A stretch of DNA of 33,759 bases from a virus: positions 1 through 33,759 of IMG/VR virus record IMGVR_UViG_3300029787_000179; one strand, 5' to 3'. Both the position numbers and the translations under genes were made by a program. The notes beneath the pieces were generated by a model. The model did not search any database. It was given only the letters and a program-made list of their open reading frames with translations, and was not told where the DNA came from. Positions 1 to 13,918 of the stretch are shown piece after piece (the stretch's first letter is position 1; each line of letters begins with the position of its first letter).

Positions 1-450
1 AGTTTCAATTCTTACCATTACTTGAGCGTAACCATCAGTTTCAGATCCAGTAGTTGTATTTACAACGAATACCATTCCTTTAATTAAAAAATTAACTGAG
101 GATCCACCAGATGCAACACCACCAGTAACAGTATCAGCATCAACAGTAAATGTATAACTAGAATCAGCAGAAACAGTAGAGCCACCATTTACAGCAGCAG
201 CTAGCAAGAAGTTTCTTGTTGTCATGTTTATTTTTGATCTATTCTCTAAGTAACGAAATACTGAGTCATCGGTAGGCGATTTAGCAACCTGCGAAAGGTA
301 TACGAAGAATGGGGATTCTTCAGGAGCCAATTCAGCAACTCGATCACTAAAATCATACAGCCTTCTCAGGTCTGGTCTTTGTCCAACACCAGCATCTTGA
401 GTAGCCGCAGTAATATTACTAGAGAGCTTAATTCCTTGTGTAAGCGACAT
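1..450 (-). CDS. Major capsid protein, N-terminal 150 residues (cut by window edge)
   Basis: Reading leftward from the ATG at 450 gives 150 uninterrupted codons that run off the left edge, so the C-terminal part is missing. The protein begins MSLTQGIKLSSN and contains RVAELAPEESPFFVYLSQV and SVFRYLENR near residues 37-70. I recognise this style from the N-terminal arm of HK97-fold phage capsid proteins. A GGAGA ribosome binding site lies about 8 nt upstream. It directly follows the scaffold gene, in the usual portal-scaffold-capsid order. The family call rests on context and these stretches, not on a search; another abundant head protein is the main alternative. Confidence 0.82.
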   Translation of the reverse strand, partial: MSLTQGIKLSSNITAATQDAGVGQRPDLRRLYDFSDRVAELAPEESPFFVYLSQVAKSPTDDSVFRYLENRSKINMTTRNFLLAAAVNGGSTVSADSSYTFTVDADTVTGGVASGGSSVNFLIKGMVFVVNTTTGSETDGYAQVMVRIET

Positions 451-473: not shown

Positions 474-1337
474 TTAAAGTAATCTTCCAGCGTTGCCAGC
501 TTTTAAGATTCTATCCCAAGAAACATCTAACTCGCTTTTTACATTAGGTTCTCCACCTTGTAAAACACCAGCAGATCTTGGCATAGCTTGAGTTTCAGTT
601 ACAGCTTGTATGTTTTCTGATGAGGGAGCATTTTCTCCTTTATTATAAAATTGTCTATAAACATTAATAAGAAAATCAACTGGTAGCTGATCTCTTGGTG
701 TCATAGCAAAATTAATAAAGTCATCTACTTCCTTATCATCACCCATACCATACTTACCTTTTAACTCAGTCTTAAGATTTTGCATAGCAACTTGACTTTG
801 GATTCCAGCCATTTGTTCAGAAACAGCTTCATTTACCAAAGCCTTTTCCTTCTCTACACGTAACTTGTACGATGCAGATTCAGGTTTGTAATAGGCTTCC
901 CATGGGTCAAATGAATTTTCATCTACAATATTTTCTTGAGATTTAGCTTCATTATTTTGCGTAGGTTTTCCTTCGAGTTGTTGTTGTAAAGCTTGAACTA
1001 CATCTGGTCTAGATTCTAAAACAGATTGTAACTGTTGTAAAGGTTGAATTTGAGAACTTAATGCATCAAAATCAGCTTTTTGCTTATCATACATAGATTG
1101 AAATTTTCTACTTTCTTGTTCCCAATCAGTAGCATAATCAATCTGCTCTTCATTTCCTTCAGCAGTTATTTCGCTTGGAGCCCTATATTCTTCTTGTTGT
1201 GGCTCTTTAGCTACTTGTTCTTGTGGTTCATTAGATACAACTTCAACATCTGGCATAGAAATATCTATACCTTTTCTGTCTTGCTCTAATCTTTCCTCGT
1301 AAGTATTTCCTACTTTTTCTGTTGTTTGGTTTTCCAT
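474..1337 (-). CDS. Capsid scaffolding protein
   Basis: The 287-aa product is strongly acidic and rich in Gln and Glu, with a disordered N-terminal third. A predicted coiled coil rich in Q, L and A covers about residues 75-125, and a short basic tail (WDRILKAGNAGRLL) ends the protein. This profile, with placement between portal and capsid, is typical of phage scaffolds that template the procapsid and then leave or are cleaved. An AAAGGA ribosome binding site precedes the ATG. The 78-bp gap to the portal gene holds no convincing gene. No protease motif is visible, so this looks like a plain scaffold rather than a protease-scaffold fusion. The sequence itself is not family-diagnostic. Confidence 0.75.
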   Translation of the reverse strand: MENQTTEKVGNTYEERLEQDRKGIDISMPDVEVVSNEPQEQVAKEPQQEEYRAPSEITAEGNEEQIDYATDWEQESRKFQSMYDKQKADFDALSSQIQPLQQLQSVLESRPDVVQALQQQLEGKPTQNNEAKSQENIVDENSFDPWEAYYKPESASYKLRVEKEKALVNEAVSEQMAGIQSQVAMQNLKTELKGKYGMGDDKEVDDFINFAMTPRDQLPVDFLINVYRQFYNKGENAPSSENIQAVTETQAMPRSAGVLQGGEPNVKSELDVSWDRILKAGNAGRLL

Positions 1338-1415
1338 TTTATTCCTTTCTGAATCTTCTTACTCTAACTTTGGCAATACCTTTCGATATCCTAGGTAAGA
1401 CCTGACTCTATATTG

Positions 1416-3431
1416 TTAACCTTCAACGCCTTCTTCGGCACCCAATATGCCTTGTTCTTGCCTTTGTCCGAATCTAGCCTGCAAATCAGCTTTGTCAATT
1501 ACATTTTCTAACTTATTGAGATTCTTTCTTTCTTTTTCTTTCATTTCGCCCATTACACTATCTAATCCACTTTTGAACTTTTGAGTGATGGTTTGTTTTC
1601 TAGCGTTAATCATTTCACGCTCAGAAGTTTGTAAATCACCACGCAACTTTTTAACCTCTTGCTCAAGTTGTTTAATGTATGACTGCATCTGATTCATAGT
1701 ACCTTTTCGCTGCAGAACACCTTCTTTGTCATAGATTTCAGTTTTCTTTAAAACCTCGACATCATCTACCAAGCCCAACTTGTAAGCATCTAAATACATA
1801 TTGTACTCAGCCATCTTATTTGATGGTAGCGTTGAACCTGATATTATCCGAATATCGTGCTGACCTAATGATATATCATTATCTATAGACTGTAATTCTT
1901 TAGACTTATCATCGTAAAGTCTGTTATTTACAGTAAATTCTGTAATGTCATTATTAGGCTGCACTATTCTAAAAGTCTTTTTAAAGCCATAGTGTCCTTT
2001 AGCAAAGTTATAAACACATCTACCAAGAACATCTAAGCTTCCCTCTATATCCCTTAATTTAGATCTACCTCTTGACTCTCCCATTTCTTGCAACAAGTAC
2101 GTACCTCTAGCTGTATCAGCAGCACCACTTCTAAATCCTTGTAACAATTCTGGTATACCAAAATTTAAATCTATATAATTTTCTACTCTACTAATTAATG
2201 CATAGAATTCAGAAGACAAAGCCTGAGGTGCTGGATAATGAGGTTCTCCAAACTCTGGATTAAACTCAATAACAGCATTAGGGTTTGCCCAATCTCTTTC
2301 TAACTGACCAATGTCATCAACACTACCTTCTGGAACTAAAAGTTTTAAACCAGCAGAAGCTTGTGCATGACTTAAGGTTAAAGAAAATAATTTATTAATC
2401 AGTCTTTGAGAATCCTTAACCTTGTTTACATCGGACTTTGGATAAGGAGTGTTTGTCCAAATATTTGGGACTGGTATAATGGGGTATATATCAGTATTTA
2501 GCACTTGTTCATAAAGCAGTATTTGTCCAACTGTAGCCACATGTTTTATCCGAGTTTGCATAACCTCGACTGCTTCAACCAGTCCCGATTCTATGATTTC
2601 AGATCTTTCATTTACAATTTTTTGAAAAGATTCTAAATCAACTATTTTTTCTTCTTGAGTCTGTTTATTAAATAATCTATAAAAAGGAACTTTAATTTTT
2701 TCAAATCTCTCGAGAATTTTATACTTTGTGTATCCCTCTCTGTCGTAATCTTTTATAACATCGGGAGTAAAAGAAGATGAAGAGTTTTTTCTTTTAGAAG
2801 AGGGATAATCCTCTTCATCTGTTGAGCTATCAATATTATCAATAATTTCTTCTAGCTTTGGATATAATCCTAACAACTGATCTTTTGTAAGTATAGTAGA
2901 GAGAACCATAGATGATGCATCAGCGTAATGCCTATCTCTAGATGCTGGGTCTACATAAACACGAAAAGGACTAACACCAGTAATCTTAACATCACCTCTA
3001 CCAAAGTCTGATTCTGGGTCAACATAAACATAAAAGTATCCTATGCCAGATACTGAATAGTCATGAACAACTTGTTTAAAATGTGTATTACAGTTTGATA
3101 TGTCCCAAATGTATTCTAATATAGTTCGCCAAACATTTGATAATTTATAATCAGAATCTTCTCTGGCAACTGCAGTAAACTTTGGATTTCTTGATGTTAA
3201 TAAGGACTTTAACTTATCTACAGCAGCGTATACTCTATCTATAATAAAATCACCTTGTCCAACAGATTGAAGCATTTCTGATTCATCTGATGAATAATGA
3301 TTTCCTAAAACAAAATCTATAGCATCCCTGGCTTCTGTATCCCAGTTTGCTCTAGCATCTCTATACCTTCTAAATAAGTCTCTATTTCGCTGTGCTTCTT
3401 CATGCTCAGCAAATGTTTCTACGTAGTTAAT
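1416..3431 (-). CDS. Portal protein, probably starting at a rare AUU codon
   Basis: The head-tail portal would be about 671 aa and forms the dodecameric ring for DNA entry and tail attachment. The first ATG is at 3275, but the frame is open and protein-like well upstream (for example RRYRDARANWDTEARDAIDF) to a stop at 3453-3455. No ATG, GTG or TTG exists in that extension. An AUU at 3431-3429 has AGGAG exactly 7 nt upstream and lies about 20 nt after the predicted transcription start, so I chose it. The C-terminus has a coiled coil (IKQLEQEVKKLRGDL). Position between TerL and scaffold supports the portal call, as does the middle domain with SRDRHYAD-type sequence. A sequencing error at the start codon is the alternative. 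Confidence 0.78.
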   Translation of the reverse strand: MNYVETFAEHEEAQRNRDLFRRYRDARANWDTEARDAIDFVLGNHYSSDESEMLQSVGQGDFIIDRVYAAVDKLKSLLTSRNPKFTAVAREDSDYKLSNVWRTILEYIWDISNCNTHFKQVVHDYSVSGIGYFYVYVDPESDFGRGDVKITGVSPFRVYVDPASRDRHYADASSMVLSTILTKDQLLGLYPKLEEIIDNIDSSTDEEDYPSSKRKNSSSSFTPDVIKDYDREGYTKYKILERFEKIKVPFYRLFNKQTQEEKIVDLESFQKIVNERSEIIESGLVEAVEVMQTRIKHVATVGQILLYEQVLNTDIYPIIPVPNIWTNTPYPKSDVNKVKDSQRLINKLFSLTLSHAQASAGLKLLVPEGSVDDIGQLERDWANPNAVIEFNPEFGEPHYPAPQALSSEFYALISRVENYIDLNFGIPELLQGFRSGAADTARGTYLLQEMGESRGRSKLRDIEGSLDVLGRCVYNFAKGHYGFKKTFRIVQPNNDITEFTVNNRLYDDKSKELQSIDNDISLGQHDIRIISGSTLPSNKMAEYNMYLDAYKLGLVDDVEVLKKTEIYDKEGVLQRKGTMNQMQSYIKQLEQEVKKLRGDLQTSEREMINARKQTITQKFKSGLDSVMGEMKEKERKNLNKLENVIDKADLQARFGQRQEQGILGAEEGVEG

Positions 3432-3458
3432 ACTCGGACTCCTAAATGTATACTATAT

Positions 3459-3487
3459 AATATAATACTTTTTAACCCTTTTGTCAA
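3459..3487 (-). promoter_or_regulatory. Leftward sigma-70 promoter for portal-scaffold-capsid
   Basis: On the minus strand TTGACA (3487-3482) is followed by a 17-bp spacer and TATATT (3464-3459). It lies in the short gap between TerL and portal and would start transcription near 3452, giving a leader of about 20 nt to the AUU start. The -35 is preceded by AC and followed by AAA, as in the other copies at 6358-6386 and 7816-7844. It probably boosts late head-gene expression. Confidence 0.85.
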
Positions 3488-3494
3488 GTATTTT

Positions 3495-5081
3495 TTATGT
3501 TCTTTGTCCAGTAATCCAACTTCTTAATATAGATTTTTGTTTTTTCTTTTGATTAATATTATCATTTGCTTGAAAATTATCAGAGTTAAAACCTTTACTT
3601 AGGGGGGCTCTAGCATTTACAACTGAATACCAAAGGCCATCTAATAGGTCATCATTCTTTCCTTTTGGAAAATGAAACATTTCATCTACTAATTCTTGAT
3701 GTATTTTTTTATGAAATAATTTACCACGATTTACAATAGGGCATAGTGTAGATTCTATTCTATCTTCTTTTTTAATTCCATGTGGTGGTCTAACTCCCCT
3801 AGCTATACCAGGAGCCATTTTTCTATCGAAACCACTCATATTGTTTACAGAGTCTTTAATAATTCCTTGAGCACCTACGTGCTCTACGTTAACTCTTCTA
3901 ACTGGATTATATTGTTTTGCCATCTCAAATATTTTTTGTGGCATTTCATATAAAGGTAAATGATCGTGATAGTAATCTAATATATAATAATTTTTTTCAC
4001 TATCAATAGCTGTAACCATGATAACCTGATAATCACTATTTGCATTTGCTTCATAAGCTAAGTCTACACCCATATAAACATTTACTGGTATAACTCTGTC
4101 TTTTGATTTTATATAAGCTTGATTAGAGTTAGATACAAACTCATAATCATGATGCTGTAGTTTATCAATTTTAAATTTAGCAGTAGCTAAGTCTCTAGCA
4201 TCATTCATATACTCTTGTGCAAACTTATGTAACTGTCCTACATTTTCATAGTCTTTTCTTATTTGATTTATTTTATCTTTACTAAAATAAGACTCCCATA
4301 AAGGTTTGCCATCTTCTAATACCCTATGAAATATAACATCCCAAGTATAAGATTCGTTTTTTTCTTGGGCTTCAAGATATCCATCGTATATAGCCTGCAA
4401 TGCTGAATCGTAATGTACGATAGTGCCAATTAACCAAATGGATCCCTCGTTGCCCTTAGACTCTTCTAAGGATGGGTAAACAGTCGACATCAACCATTCC
4501 TTAATTTCTCTTCTTCTATCTGGTGTTTTTGTATTTAACTCAGATTCAAAGTCATCAAGAATAATATTTGTATACCTAGTACCTAGCTCAGATCGACCAC
4601 GCAATCTTTGGCTAGTACCTTTTGCTATAACTCTATCTCCACGACTGGTTGTTATTTCTTTTTCAGTCCACTTATCCCCAACCATATCTCCAAAATAATA
4701 ATGCAATGGACTATTAAACTCAATATGATTTTTAATATACTTTAAATGATCAACAGCTTGTCCTTGTTCTTCTGATACCCAAGCAGCAAATTCTTTCTTA
4801 CCTTTTGGATTAAAATATATTTTATGCAATAATGCAGCTTTAGCCATAGTAGATTTAGAATGACCTCTAGGCAAAACAACACAAAGTTTTCTAAGGCTTT
4901 TATCAAGCAACTTATTACCAACCTCATAATGAAAAGGAGCTGGTGTGCTTTTCATAAAATCATCTGGAAGAAACAGTTGACCAAAAGCTATAAGATCTTT
5001 TGATACTAAATTAAGAACTCTTTCTTTTTCAGAAAGACCACTTGAGTTTATATTAAAATTATCTATTGTACCAATCTCCAC
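3495..5081 (-). CDS. Terminase large subunit (TerL)
   Basis: This 528-aa protein is the DNA-packaging motor. It has an ATPase with Walker A PRGHSKST at residues 71-78 and Walker B IILDDFE at 173-179. A C-terminal RNase H-like nuclease follows, with acidic residues in MGVDLAYE (D340), NVEHVG (E400) and NDDLLDG (D477, D478, D481). Length and domain order match phage TerL. The likely start is GTG at 5081, inside the end of the GGCT gene (23-nt overlap), with no strong ribosome binding site, so translation may be coupled. TerS is two genes upstream and portal follows. Confidence is high because all catalytic motifs are present. Confidence 0.95.
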   Translation of the reverse strand: MEIGTIDNFNINSSGLSEKERVLNLVSKDLIAFGQLFLPDDFMKSTPAPFHYEVGNKLLDKSLRKLCVVLPRGHSKSTMAKAALLHKIYFNPKGKKEFAAWVSEEQGQAVDHLKYIKNHIEFNSPLHYYFGDMVGDKWTEKEITTSRGDRVIAKGTSQRLRGRSELGTRYTNIILDDFESELNTKTPDRRREIKEWLMSTVYPSLEESKGNEGSIWLIGTIVHYDSALQAIYDGYLEAQEKNESYTWDVIFHRVLEDGKPLWESYFSKDKINQIRKDYENVGQLHKFAQEYMNDARDLATAKFKIDKLQHHDYEFVSNSNQAYIKSKDRVIPVNVYMGVDLAYEANANSDYQVIMVTAIDSEKNYYILDYYHDHLPLYEMPQKIFEMAKQYNPVRRVNVEHVGAQGIIKDSVNNMSGFDRKMAPGIARGVRPPHGIKKEDRIESTLCPIVNRGKLFHKKIHQELVDEMFHFPKGKNDDLLDGLWYSVVNARAPLSKGFNSDNFQANDNINQKKKQKSILRSWITGQRT

Positions 5082-5421: not shown

Positions 5422-5645
5422 TAACTCACTCCATGAACTGCTGGTAAACCAACAGAATCTATTTCTAAGTTATTATCATAAATAGTCATACAACTCATAC
5501 ATTCAACATACATTTTATTTTGATCTAAGTTTTTTATTATGTAAGCAGTAGGAAATAGTTTATGCCCACATAGTACACAACGACTAGACTTCAACTTCTC
5601 TGTTAGCTTCTGCAATTTGTTTAACTCCTCCTGATCCGATGGCAT
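5421..5645 (-). CDS. Small zinc-ribbon-like protein
   Basis: The 74-aa product has a short helical N-terminus (EELNKLQKLTEKLKS), then CVLCGHKLF and, about 25 residues later, CMSCM. This makes a plausible four-Cys zinc ribbon. It starts at ATG 5645 with AAAGGAG at good spacing, inside the end of the TerS-like gene (62-nt overlap), and ends in a TAATG overlap with the GGCT gene. I do not recognise the family. Its position among packaging genes suggests a DNA- or terminase-associated role, but nothing in the sequence proves it. Confidence 0.65.
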   Translation of the reverse strand: MPSDQEELNKLQKLTEKLKSSRCVLCGHKLFPTAYIIKNLDQNKMYVECMSCMTIYDNNLEIDSVGLPAVHGVS

Positions 5646-6348
5646 TTAATTGCTCCTTTGTAAATCCTTGAAAGACAGCAACTGACTCTGTTCTTTTATC
5701 TGTATCCATCATCCCACTGATTTGCATTAATGTTTTAATAGCTTGTATTTTATCTTTATCTTGAGACTCCCCATTGTCTACAATATGTTTCATTTGTTCT
5801 AGTAAATACAAAGGAGTAATCTCAGCTTCTGTAAGAATCTTATCTATTTCTTCTCTAATCAATTTTTGTATCCTTTTTGCTTTCATGAGTATTTTGGCTT
5901 GACCCTCAGCATATTTTTTATTATTAGTCGGATATGCTTTTAAAAAAGAGTCTACTATATTTTCACCTTTAGCAACAAATTGAGCAAAAAGAAACTCTCT
6001 GTGTGTTAATTTTTTTTTCTCAATTTTATGATTCCAGACTGTTTTATTAGCCAAGCCAAAAGAGTAAAGATTTTTTCTAGGCTCTCCCTCTATCTTAACA
6101 GTTTTATTGCAAACAAAGGTTCCTAATGGAACTCTTATATAATCTTTTGTCGCATCAGAGTCTTTTGATACTTTAAGCTTTCCACGTTTTAAAACCTGAC
6201 AAACTTGTCCATCATCTGAAACTATCCAACTACCCTCGTCTCCATCTCTCCAGTTGTTAACAACATCTGTGTTTACATTGTACTGTTTAAATTCTTCTAT
6301 ACTTTCGTATATAGGATGATTAACCTTATTAATCTTTCTGCTTATCAT
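5584..6348 (-). CDS. Terminase small subunit-like protein (TerS)
   Basis: The 254-aa protein probably recognises phage DNA for packaging. Residues about 115-165 (LTHREFLFAQFVAKGENIVD, SFLKAYPTNNKKYAEGQA) resemble the helix-turn-helix of phage small terminases. The next segment (EEIDKILTEAEITPLYLLEQ) and a helical stretch to about residue 215 fit oligomerisation. The first 110 residues are unusual and unrecognised. The gene lies just upstream of TerL with two small genes between. Its ATG is only about 9 nt from the -10 box of the promoter at 6358-6386, so the mRNA would be nearly leaderless. Another HTH phage regulator is possible, but position favours TerS. Confidence 0.75.
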   Translation of the reverse strand: MISRKINKVNHPIYESIEEFKQYNVNTDVVNNWRDGDEGSWIVSDDGQVCQVLKRGKLKVSKDSDATKDYIRVPLGTFVCNKTVKIEGEPRKNLYSFGLANKTVWNHKIEKKKLTHREFLFAQFVAKGENIVDSFLKAYPTNNKKYAEGQAKILMKAKRIQKLIREEIDKILTEAEITPLYLLEQMKHIVDNGESQDKDKIQAIKTLMQISGMMDTDKRTESVAVFQGFTKEQLNAIGSGGVKQIAEANREVEV

Positions 6349-6357
6349 CTATTATAT

Positions 6358-6386
6358 AATATAACCTATTTTATTGTTTTTGTCAA
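6358..6386 (-). promoter_or_regulatory. Leftward sigma-70 promoter for TerS-TerL
   Basis: Minus strand TTGACA (6386-6381), 17-bp spacer, TATATT (6363-6358). The -35 overlaps the stop codon of the exonuclease gene. Predicted +1 is near 6351, just 2-3 nt before the TerS ATG at 6348. Both hexamers and the spacer match the copies at 3459-3487 and 7816-7844 exactly. Confidence 0.85.
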
Positions 6387-11109: not shown

Positions 11110-12294
11110 ATGTGTGGTATATTTGGTTATGCAAAGCAGAGCAATGCACAGACAGACCAACAGATGGAGACCATCAACGTAGTTCTAAAAAACCTAGCTA
11201 GAGAATCAGAAGTCAGAGGTAAAGATTCTACTGGTATAGCAATTATCAGCGAGAATAAAAATCCTCTAGTATTCAAGTCTCTAAAGAAAGCTAGTAATCT
11301 AGTTAAGGACAAACACTATGGAAAGATTCAAGAGAGTATTGACAAAGAGACAGCGATAGTTCTAGGTCATACTAGATACGCTACTCACGGTACAGTATCT
11401 CTAAAGAACGCTCATCCATTTAGTTTTGGCTCTATTATTGGTACTCACAATGGTGTAATATACAATCATGAAGATGTCTCAGCATCTCTTAAAAGAGTGT
11501 ATGAGGTAGACTCACAAGCTGTGTTTGCTCTATTTGACCAGAATAGTAACTTACAAGAATGTCTAGACGAGATGTACGGAGACTACGCATTAGCATGGAA
11601 TAAAGATAACAAGAACACCTTGTATCTACTGAGAGAAGAAGGTAGACCATGCCATTACGTATACTGGAGTGAAGCTAAAGTTATGTTCTATGCATCTACT
11701 AAAGAGATACTAGAACAAGCTATACAGAAAAGCACTATGAGTAGACGTATAGATAAGCATACGATTGAAGTATACAATCACTTGCTCGATCTATACACGT
11801 CTGAGATACATACACTAGATGTGGATAAGTTATACACATTCGATACACACAAGTTTACAGACGAGTTAGTATACGAGACTAAAGACTATATCACAAACTC
11901 TATATCATATAACTACGTAAAAAGTAGAGGTGCCTGGGATTATGGTAGCTATGGTAGATATGGTGGTTATGGATATAATACTTGCGATGTAGATGATTAT
12001 ATGCTAGACGAGATTAGCTGTGATGGATGCGACGAGAAAACTCAGTACGTGGATATAATCTACAACGAAGATACTAAAGAGTATGTATGCTATGATTGTG
12101 AATACAAAGAGAATCCAAAACTAAACGTAGATGAAGCTTATATGGAAGGTATAGAGTGTAGCGACTGCAAGTCTTACGATGACAGCATATATAAAGTCAA
12201 TAAAGATTATATATGTGAAGATTGTTATTCTAAAGAAGACTCATCCAGAGAGGAGAGTTACGATGATAAACAGCAAAAATTCTTTCATCTCTAA
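11110..12294 (+). CDS. Class II glutamine amidotransferase with C-terminal zinc modules
   Basis: The N-terminal 240 residues are an Ntn-type glutaminase. They show nucleophile Cys2 exposed after Met removal (MCGIFGY), RGKDSTGI at 36-43, GHTRYATHG with R89, NAHPF at 100-104, HNG with N114-G115, and VDS with D134. It should release ammonia from glutamine. No synthase domain follows. Instead there is a Gly/Tyr-rich linker at about 272-290 and four CxxC pairs (304/307, 327/330, 350/353, 369/372), which look like two LIM- or treble-clef-like zinc modules. GGAGAATAT precedes the ATG. The amidoligase two genes on has similar Cys modules, so it is the likely ammonia or amine acceptor partner; this is inference. 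Confidence 0.9.
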   Translation: MCGIFGYAKQSNAQTDQQMETINVVLKNLARESEVRGKDSTGIAIISENKNPLVFKSLKKASNLVKDKHYGKIQESIDKETAIVLGHTRYATHGTVSLKNAHPFSFGSIIGTHNGVIYNHEDVSASLKRVYEVDSQAVFALFDQNSNLQECLDEMYGDYALAWNKDNKNTLYLLREEGRPCHYVYWSEAKVMFYASTKEILEQAIQKSTMSRRIDKHTIEVYNHLLDLYTSEIHTLDVDKLYTFDTHKFTDELVYETKDYITNSISYNYVKSRGAWDYGSYGRYGGYGYNTCDVDDYMLDEISCDGCDEKTQYVDIIYNEDTKEYVCYDCEYKENPKLNVDEAYMEGIECSDCKSYDDSIYKVNKDYICEDCYSKEDSSREESYDDKQQKFFHL

Positions 12295-12589: not shown

Positions 12590-13918
12590 ATGCCAGCTAG
12601 AATAAATACTAGAAGGATAGAAACCTTTGAATGTCATTGCTGTAGTGATACATATACAGTTAATAGTCTTGAAGCTAGAAAACAAGAAAGAGAAGGTACC
12701 TTAGAGCACCCCATTAGGCAGGTAAGAGATGTTAATATACACGGTCAAAGTTGGGAGATAATATGCAATGTCTGTTACGATGATGAAATAACAGAATGTG
12801 CTGATTGCTCTTGTAGTCTAGAAAGAGATAGTTCTTATACTTTCTATAGCGAAAATGGAGAAGCATACTGCGAAGATTGTTACTATGAAAACTATAGCCA
12901 TTGCGATGACTGTGGAGAAGAAGGTCATAGAGACTATATGATATACAGAGAAAGCAGAGAACAGATGTACTGTGAGAACTGCGATCCTGGAGATTCAGAT
13001 GATGTAGACCTATGGAGTTTCAATAGAATAAATAAGATAGAGTCTACAATACCAGAGACAGAGTCACGTAGGTTCGTAGGAGTTGAGATAGAGTGTTTAG
13101 TTGAGGATTCAGAGTGGTGGGATTATCATGATAATTATCCAGAGACATTCAGAGCTGTTAGCGATAGCTCTATAGAAAGAGTAGAAGATAGTAGTACAGT
13201 AGAGTTTGTACATAGAGCACCGATACAAGGTAGAAGACTTAAGAGGTCTATAGTTTCTATGTGTGATTATCTATCAGCCAATGACTTCTTTACTAATAGA
13301 AGCTGTGGTCTACACGTACACGTTGATGCTGCAGATATGGGTTATAGAGATCTTAAGTGGACTCTACTATTAGGTAAGTCTGTTCAAGACATTATCTATA
13401 AGATGATGCCAATGTCTAGACGAGATGGTAGATGGGCTAAGAGAATACCTATGAGTAGAGAGAGTATACTTAATATCTGTGATGACCATGACTTCGTAGA
13501 CCAATGGTACTCAGCCTGGGGCGTAGAACCTAGCTATGAGAAGTATAATAGCTCTAGATATTGTGGTATGAATATGCACTCTAGGATTATCAATGGCTCT
13601 ATTGAGTTTAGGTATCACTCTGGTACTATCAATAGAAACAAGATAATAAACTGGATTACTATATGCCAAGCGATAGTAGATACTGGTAGACTTCTAGGTA
13701 TGTATGGAGAAGCTAAATATATTGCTAACATTCCAGAAGAATATCATTATATAAAAGTACTAGCTAACCAGATCTCTGAGAGAGACTTAACCTATGGAGA
13801 GTTTTGTAAGTATCTTAGATTACCTCTTGAGGTAAAACAGCACACTAGGAAGAGACTAACTAAGTTCTACAACTCTGACTACAGAGAAGACTACGAGACT
13901 ATGCATTTCTACGTATAA
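12590..13918 (+). CDS. Amidoligase (glutamine-synthetase-fold COOH-NH2 ligase) with N-terminal zinc modules
   Basis: Residues about 160-420 match phage-type putative amidoligases. GVEIECL has metal-binding E166 and E168, SSTVEFVHRAP has E205, GLHVHVD has H242 and H244, and SIEFRYHSGTIN has E339 and R341. These enzymes use ATP to join a carboxyl to an amine. The first 135 residues hold repeated Cys pairs (C15/C18, C59/C62, C70/C73, C94/C97, C105/C108, C128/C131), probably several zinc modules that may choose the target. TAGGAGGT directly precedes the ATG. It lies in an operon with the class II amidotransferase. The substrate is unknown: phage protein, host protein or cell-wall peptide are all possible. 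Confidence 0.88.
   Translation: MPARINTRRIETFECHCCSDTYTVNSLEARKQEREGTLEHPIRQVRDVNIHGQSWEIICNVCYDDEITECADCSCSLERDSSYTFYSENGEAYCEDCYYENYSHCDDCGEEGHRDYMIYRESREQMYCENCDPGDSDDVDLWSFNRINKIESTIPETESRRFVGVEIECLVEDSEWWDYHDNYPETFRAVSDSSIERVEDSSTVEFVHRAPIQGRRLKRSIVSMCDYLSANDFFTNRSCGLHVHVDAADMGYRDLKWTLLLGKSVQDIIYKMMPMSRRDGRWAKRIPMSRESILNICDDHDFVDQWYSAWGVEPSYEKYNSSRYCGMNMHSRIINGSIEFRYHSGTINRNKIINWITICQAIVDTGRLLGMYGEAKYIANIPEEYHYIKVLANQISERDLTYGEFCKYLRLPLEVKQHTRKRLTKFYNSDYREDYETMHFYV

Follow-up and report, generated by a model that had tools for sequence, protein, structure and literature searches.

Initiation at AUU, AUC or AUA codons, together denoted here as AUH, is known in a handful of bacterial genes. 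In the infC gene, which encodes initiation factor IF3, an AUH start preceded by a Shine-Dalgarno box is conserved, with the third base varying between species. The same is true for the phage portal gene described below; like infC and pcnB, it has an AUH codon with a Shine-Dalgarno box, no usable AUG, GUG or UUG, and conservation of AUH in the relatives. However, infC is a cellular gene acting in a feedback loop, whereas here the gene encodes a virion protein and no IF3 is encoded by the phage. Autoregulation as in infC requires that the product be IF3, and here it is the portal. The S. aureus genes cvfC1 (AUU) and ccpN (AUA) also combine a conserved AUH start with a strong Shine-Dalgarno box, and their translation is lowered: AUU and AUA starts in this setting give approximately 10% of the AUG yield (PMC13009471). 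These are bacterial genes verified by ribosome profiling, whereas the portal is a virion structural gene known from sequence. In sigR of Streptomyces, a weak start sets the stoichiometry relative to the partner encoded downstream, as is proposed here for the portal; on the other hand, sigR has a GTC start, belongs to a sigma/anti-sigma pair and was tested experimentally. Phage P22 shares with the considered locus the portal family (PF16510) and the gene order terL-portal-scaffold-coat; the P22 portal has a canonical start. No report of an AUH start in a phage structural gene was found in the open-access literature.

The window, as the whole analysed stretch of DNA is called below, corresponds to an IMG/VR virus record of 33.8 kb; the features of the locus are listed in Table 1. 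The portal frame belongs to the P22 type, as it matches PHROG 156 (E 1.8e-66) and Pfam P22_portal (E 2.3e-51, 175.5 bits at a cut-off of 26.1). The gene order in the window is terL-portal-scaffold-coat, the scaffold and coat genes being named by position only, and in the relatives both genes begin with ATG wherever they are covered. The AlphaFold model of the portal was poor (mean pLDDT 39) and was not used. When the window portal was used as a tblastn query against cultured phages, no match was obtained, the protein similarity being too low; the portal of locus L209 gave weak matches (22%) to P22-type portals. No prophage relatives were found on searching bacterial genomes. Elsewhere in the window, two adjoining genes, one for a protein like class II glutamine amidotransferases and the other for an Amidoligase_2 protein, occupy positions 11110-12294 and 12590-13918 of the plus strand.

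Table 1. Coordinates of features at the portal locus of the window
Feature	Position	Strand	Basis or comment
terL (terminase large subunit) gene, end 63 nt 5' of the AUU	3495..5081	-	
Predicted sigma-70-type promoter TTGACA-17-TATATT (11/12)	3459..3487	-	terL-portal gap; shared by the AUH group at this position, absent from the outgroup
In-frame stop TAG, 7 codons 5' of the AUU	3453..3455	-	sequence reading
Shine-Dalgarno box AGGAG, 7-nt spacer to the AUU	3439..3443	-	sequence reading and relatives
ATT (AUU), very probable initiation codon of the portal	3429..3431	-	AUH at the aligned codon in 112/114 ingroup portals (other 2 TTG)
Portal gene, 671 codons counted from the AUU	1416..3431	-	ORF and profile matches
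Earliest in-frame ATG (residue 53 from the ATT), rejected as start	3273..3275	-	no Shine-Dalgarno box
Covarying structured RNA element, portal-scaffold junction	1341..1412	-	clade-wise alignment, covariation
Scaffold-like gene, 287 aa, ATG start	474..1337	-	position, synteny with P22
Major-capsid-like gene, ATG start, cut by the window end	1..450	-	position, synteny

From stop to stop, the portal frame comprises 678 codons (1416-3452). The first-pass annotation suggested that the gene starts at an AUU, since 52 protein-like codons free of ATG, GTG and TTG precede the first ATG. Indeed, none of these triplets occurs in frame between the upstream stop and codon 53, and the Pfam match starts at residue 17, well upstream of the ATG. 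The positions given for the AUU and its Shine-Dalgarno box were correct as well; the minus strand around the start reads ...TTGACAAAAGGGTTAAAAAGTATTATATTATATAGTATACATTTAGGAGTCCGAGT-ATT-AACTACGTAGAA.... Among the 5552 ATT, ATC and ATA triplets on both strands of the window, only 21 (0.4%) have AGGAG or GGAGG 5-9 nt upstream. Initiation at the AUU would produce the N-terminal peptide MNYVETFAEHEEAQR with Met at position 1. This is the sole clear non-canonical start in the window; the remaining genes start canonically, which rules out a general loss of AUG use.

Searches of IMG/VR yielded several hundred loci with 158 distinct portal proteins whose 5' end was readable. In ten rows, each read individually, the start was set by hand over the automatic choice: ATT in L244, L247, L208 and L211, ATC in L059, L123, L151 and L175, and TTG in L156 and L157. 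The resulting starts are ATT (78), ATC (27), ATA (7), TTG (2), ATG (37) and GTG (7). Thus AUH occupies the aligned site in 112 of 158 portals, which agrees with the suggested AUU start, whereas in the outgroup it is taken by ATG or GTG (44 portals). All AUH portals form one group, a large set of uncultured marine phages with amino acid identity to the window portal ranging from 97% down to approximately 65%. No member of this group has ATG or GTG at the site, or starts at an ATG without homology upstream; ATG and GTG are confined to the separate outgroup. A base error, which the first-pass annotation had considered, is excluded, as contigs from many different metagenomes carry AUH at this site.

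The first two positions of the codon are invariant (83 sequences), and the third one is always T, C or A. The three-base periodicity begins directly after the AUH codon (0.09/0.05/0.33 for codons 2-22 in the nearest clade), and none was seen upstream of it. Most relatives retain AGGAG, AAGGAG, GGGGG or GAGGTG 5-8 nt upstream, and the Shine-Dalgarno boxes of the outgroup are weaker than those of the AUH group. An in-frame stop lies 1-37 codons upstream of the AUH start, and in L247 and L250 a single codon separates it from the ATT or ATC. In the outgroup, the ATG or GTG takes up the corresponding position and is followed by the same W(R/K)DAR motif; hence the conserved N-terminus is genuine protein with a natural start there. 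ATA is found at the start in 5 of 55 rows, compared to approximately 50% of isoleucine codons in these portals; although the rows are not independent, this scarcity favours a role in initiation over that of an ordinary isoleucine codon. Given the in-frame stops, the conserved N-terminus and the Shine-Dalgarno boxes in more than 100 distinct relatives, AUH is the only compatible reading, and translation of the portal almost certainly initiates at AUU, or at AUC or AUA in the relatives. As judged from these alignments, the unusually well-conserved non-canonical start in a phage virion gene appears to be real.

One record of the set, IMGVR_UViG_3300030708_000851 (80282 bases), contains two different portals of the family, L066 and L111, which are 86% and 83% identical to that of the window. 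At about twice the usual 38-kb genome, it is either a chimeric assembly or a case of joined genomes.

In the AUH group, the portal gene directly follows terL, and the gap of 61-88 nt contains the candidate promoter. In the window, transcription is predicted to start at about 3452, approximately 21 nt before the ATT, so that the AUU indeed lies just past the predicted transcription start, as originally described. The predicted leaders are 19-34 nt long, 41 of the 46 measurable ones contain no ATG in any frame, and the leader of the portal has no hidden structure (z +1.7). The promoter and the AUH start co-occur, and neither is found outside the group. One exception is L060, which has kept AUA and lost the promoter, with a rearranged upstream region and terL 362 nt away; the 96% identical L061 differs in upstream layout, and the region upstream of L060 is recombined. 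Another exception is L156 with a gap of 181 nt, and in the ISSI clade the match is weaker (TTGCAT-17-TAAATT). In outgroup records containing terL, other genes mostly lie between terL and the portal (0.5-2.5 kb), and the portal ATG is near the end of the preceding gene, without a promoter. The leaders of L244 and L247 contain ATG GGG TAG one codon ahead of the start (ATGGGGTAG-ATT-ATT and ATGGGGTAG-ACT-ATT); this two-codon ORF might allow reinitiation at the AUU in that clade. A second TTGACA-17-TATATT candidate is located in the window at 6348-6386 (minus strand). As only 9 nt separate its end from the start codon ATG of gene 5584-6348, the predicted transcript would be almost leaderless.

The spacer between the portal and scaffold genes is approximately 50-100 nt in the AUH group, compared to approximately 22 nt outside it, and contains a candidate structured RNA. 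In the clade of the window, it consists of three helices, namely an outer helix GAGUC..GAUUC, a variable six-pair helix and an inner hairpin UAUC-GAAA-GGUA; 7 pairs have changed on both sides, and 97.7% of cells are paired. The covariation score is 0.299, compared to 0.170 in shuffled alignments (0/500). The same element is present in L008, L061, L142, L194, L236, L244 and others. With a covariance model built from the window's clade, the element was recovered at this junction in most of the remaining AUH clades that were tested, weakly in several of them. The element was not found in any outgroup locus searched, including L306 and L308, and it has no match in Rfam. One may speculate that it insulates or autoregulates scaffold and coat. 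As the AUH group has a single origin, the association of the promoter, the AUH start and the RNA element is one unreplicated event.

P22 requires 12 subunits of the portal, 60-300 of the scaffold and 415 of the coat protein (PMC9320234), and the portal is the nucleus of procapsid assembly (PMC13386823). A promoter just before the portal gene from which scaffold and coat are transcribed as well would lead to portal overproduction unless portal translation is throttled. The explanation we prefer, with a probability of about 0.65 for the whole, combines the AUH start of the portal with a translational brake within the portal-scaffold-coat operon. The strong promoter in the terL-portal gap would produce a portal-scaffold-coat mRNA, on which scaffold and coat, having AUG starts, would be fully translated. 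The AUH codon would pair imperfectly with the initiator tRNA and be rejected by the host IF3, reducing portal translation to a fraction, whereas the strong Shine-Dalgarno box and the unstructured leader would keep the site usable. We infer both the IF3 dependence and the size of the effect; as the phage records contain neither IF3 nor tRNA genes, it is the host machinery that decides. The suggestion of the first-pass annotation that IF3 sensitivity could limit portal production would fit the operon layout, the subunit numbers of P22 and the approximately 10% yield of AUU and AUA starts in S. aureus. The brake would set the portal-to-coat ratio of 12 to approximately 415 and avert excess portal nuclei. 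That AUH is a built-in brake, keeping the 12-copy portal scarce relative to the coat, thus seems a reasonably probable reading of the analysis. A more elaborate version, in which the junction RNA, possibly bound by the scaffold protein, resets scaffold and coat translation or makes it autoregulated and, together with AUH throttling of the portal, fixes the portal : scaffold : coat ratio in response to the host IF3, is tentative and rather doubtful.

Rather than keeping a constant low level, the AUH start could serve as a switch, with portal synthesis following free IF3 or the state of the ribosomes and thereby timing assembly. AUU, AUC and AUA are codons rejected by IF3, and infC itself starts with AUU or AUC (PMC5472188); moreover, the output of the AUA start of S. 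aureus ccpN varies with the medium (PMC13009471). However, no trigger made by the phage is visible, as neither IF3 (PF00707) nor tRNA genes were found in 17 phage records, and no phage-encoded initiator tRNA was found; the constant brake is also simpler. We therefore consider such a switch unlikely.

Less likely still, AUH may be a relic of a single fixation by drift, maintained because weak initiation, which brings no benefit, is compensated by the strong promoter and Shine-Dalgarno box. The history of the codon was followed on a tree built by maximum likelihood from 79 representatives. A single clade of all AUH and TTG rows was not rejected by the AU test (p-AU 0.57); the constrained tree surpassed that of the free search by 1.25 log units, and L306 (ATG) falls outside the clade in it. 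Hence one switch from AUG to AUH is enough, and among 56 representative lineages none has to have returned to AUG. This single origin agrees with a relic, as does the fact that the Shine-Dalgarno boxes of the group exceed those of the outgroup. However, AUG is one base away, and within the AUH rows at least seven interchanges of AUU, AUC and AUA are required over a tree span of approximately 4.9 substitutions per site, none of them giving AUG. On the same tree, fourfold-degenerate third positions have undergone 13.8 changes on average, and 11 of 79 such columns have no G, so the missing G at the third start position is weak by itself. On the other hand, changes of natural start codons towards AUG outnumber those in the opposite direction, and a change from AUG to AUU was observed once in 61,358 ancestral starts (PMC5622118). 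Together with the long retention of AUH, as reconstructed from the tree, this implies selection against AUG.

Finally, a start elsewhere, whether at the ATG at 3275, by readthrough from terL or at an upstream start in another frame with a subsequent frameshift, is very improbable: although L128 has an in-frame ATG six codons upstream and a few leaders contain another ATG, most leaders are free of ATG in all frames, in-frame stops intervene and the periodicity is absent upstream, leaving a frameshift or upstream start ruled out or very unlikely, and the ATG at 3275 would cost 36 profile-matched residues.

A practical consequence of the AUH start is that standard gene callers would trim the N-terminus of the portal, by approximately 52 residues in the window, and the portal is a common phage marker gene. 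If the translational brake is true, the family, which keeps AUH lineage-wide on an essential virion gene and has not returned to AUG, would be a clear example from nature of assembly stoichiometry being set by the strength of a start codon.
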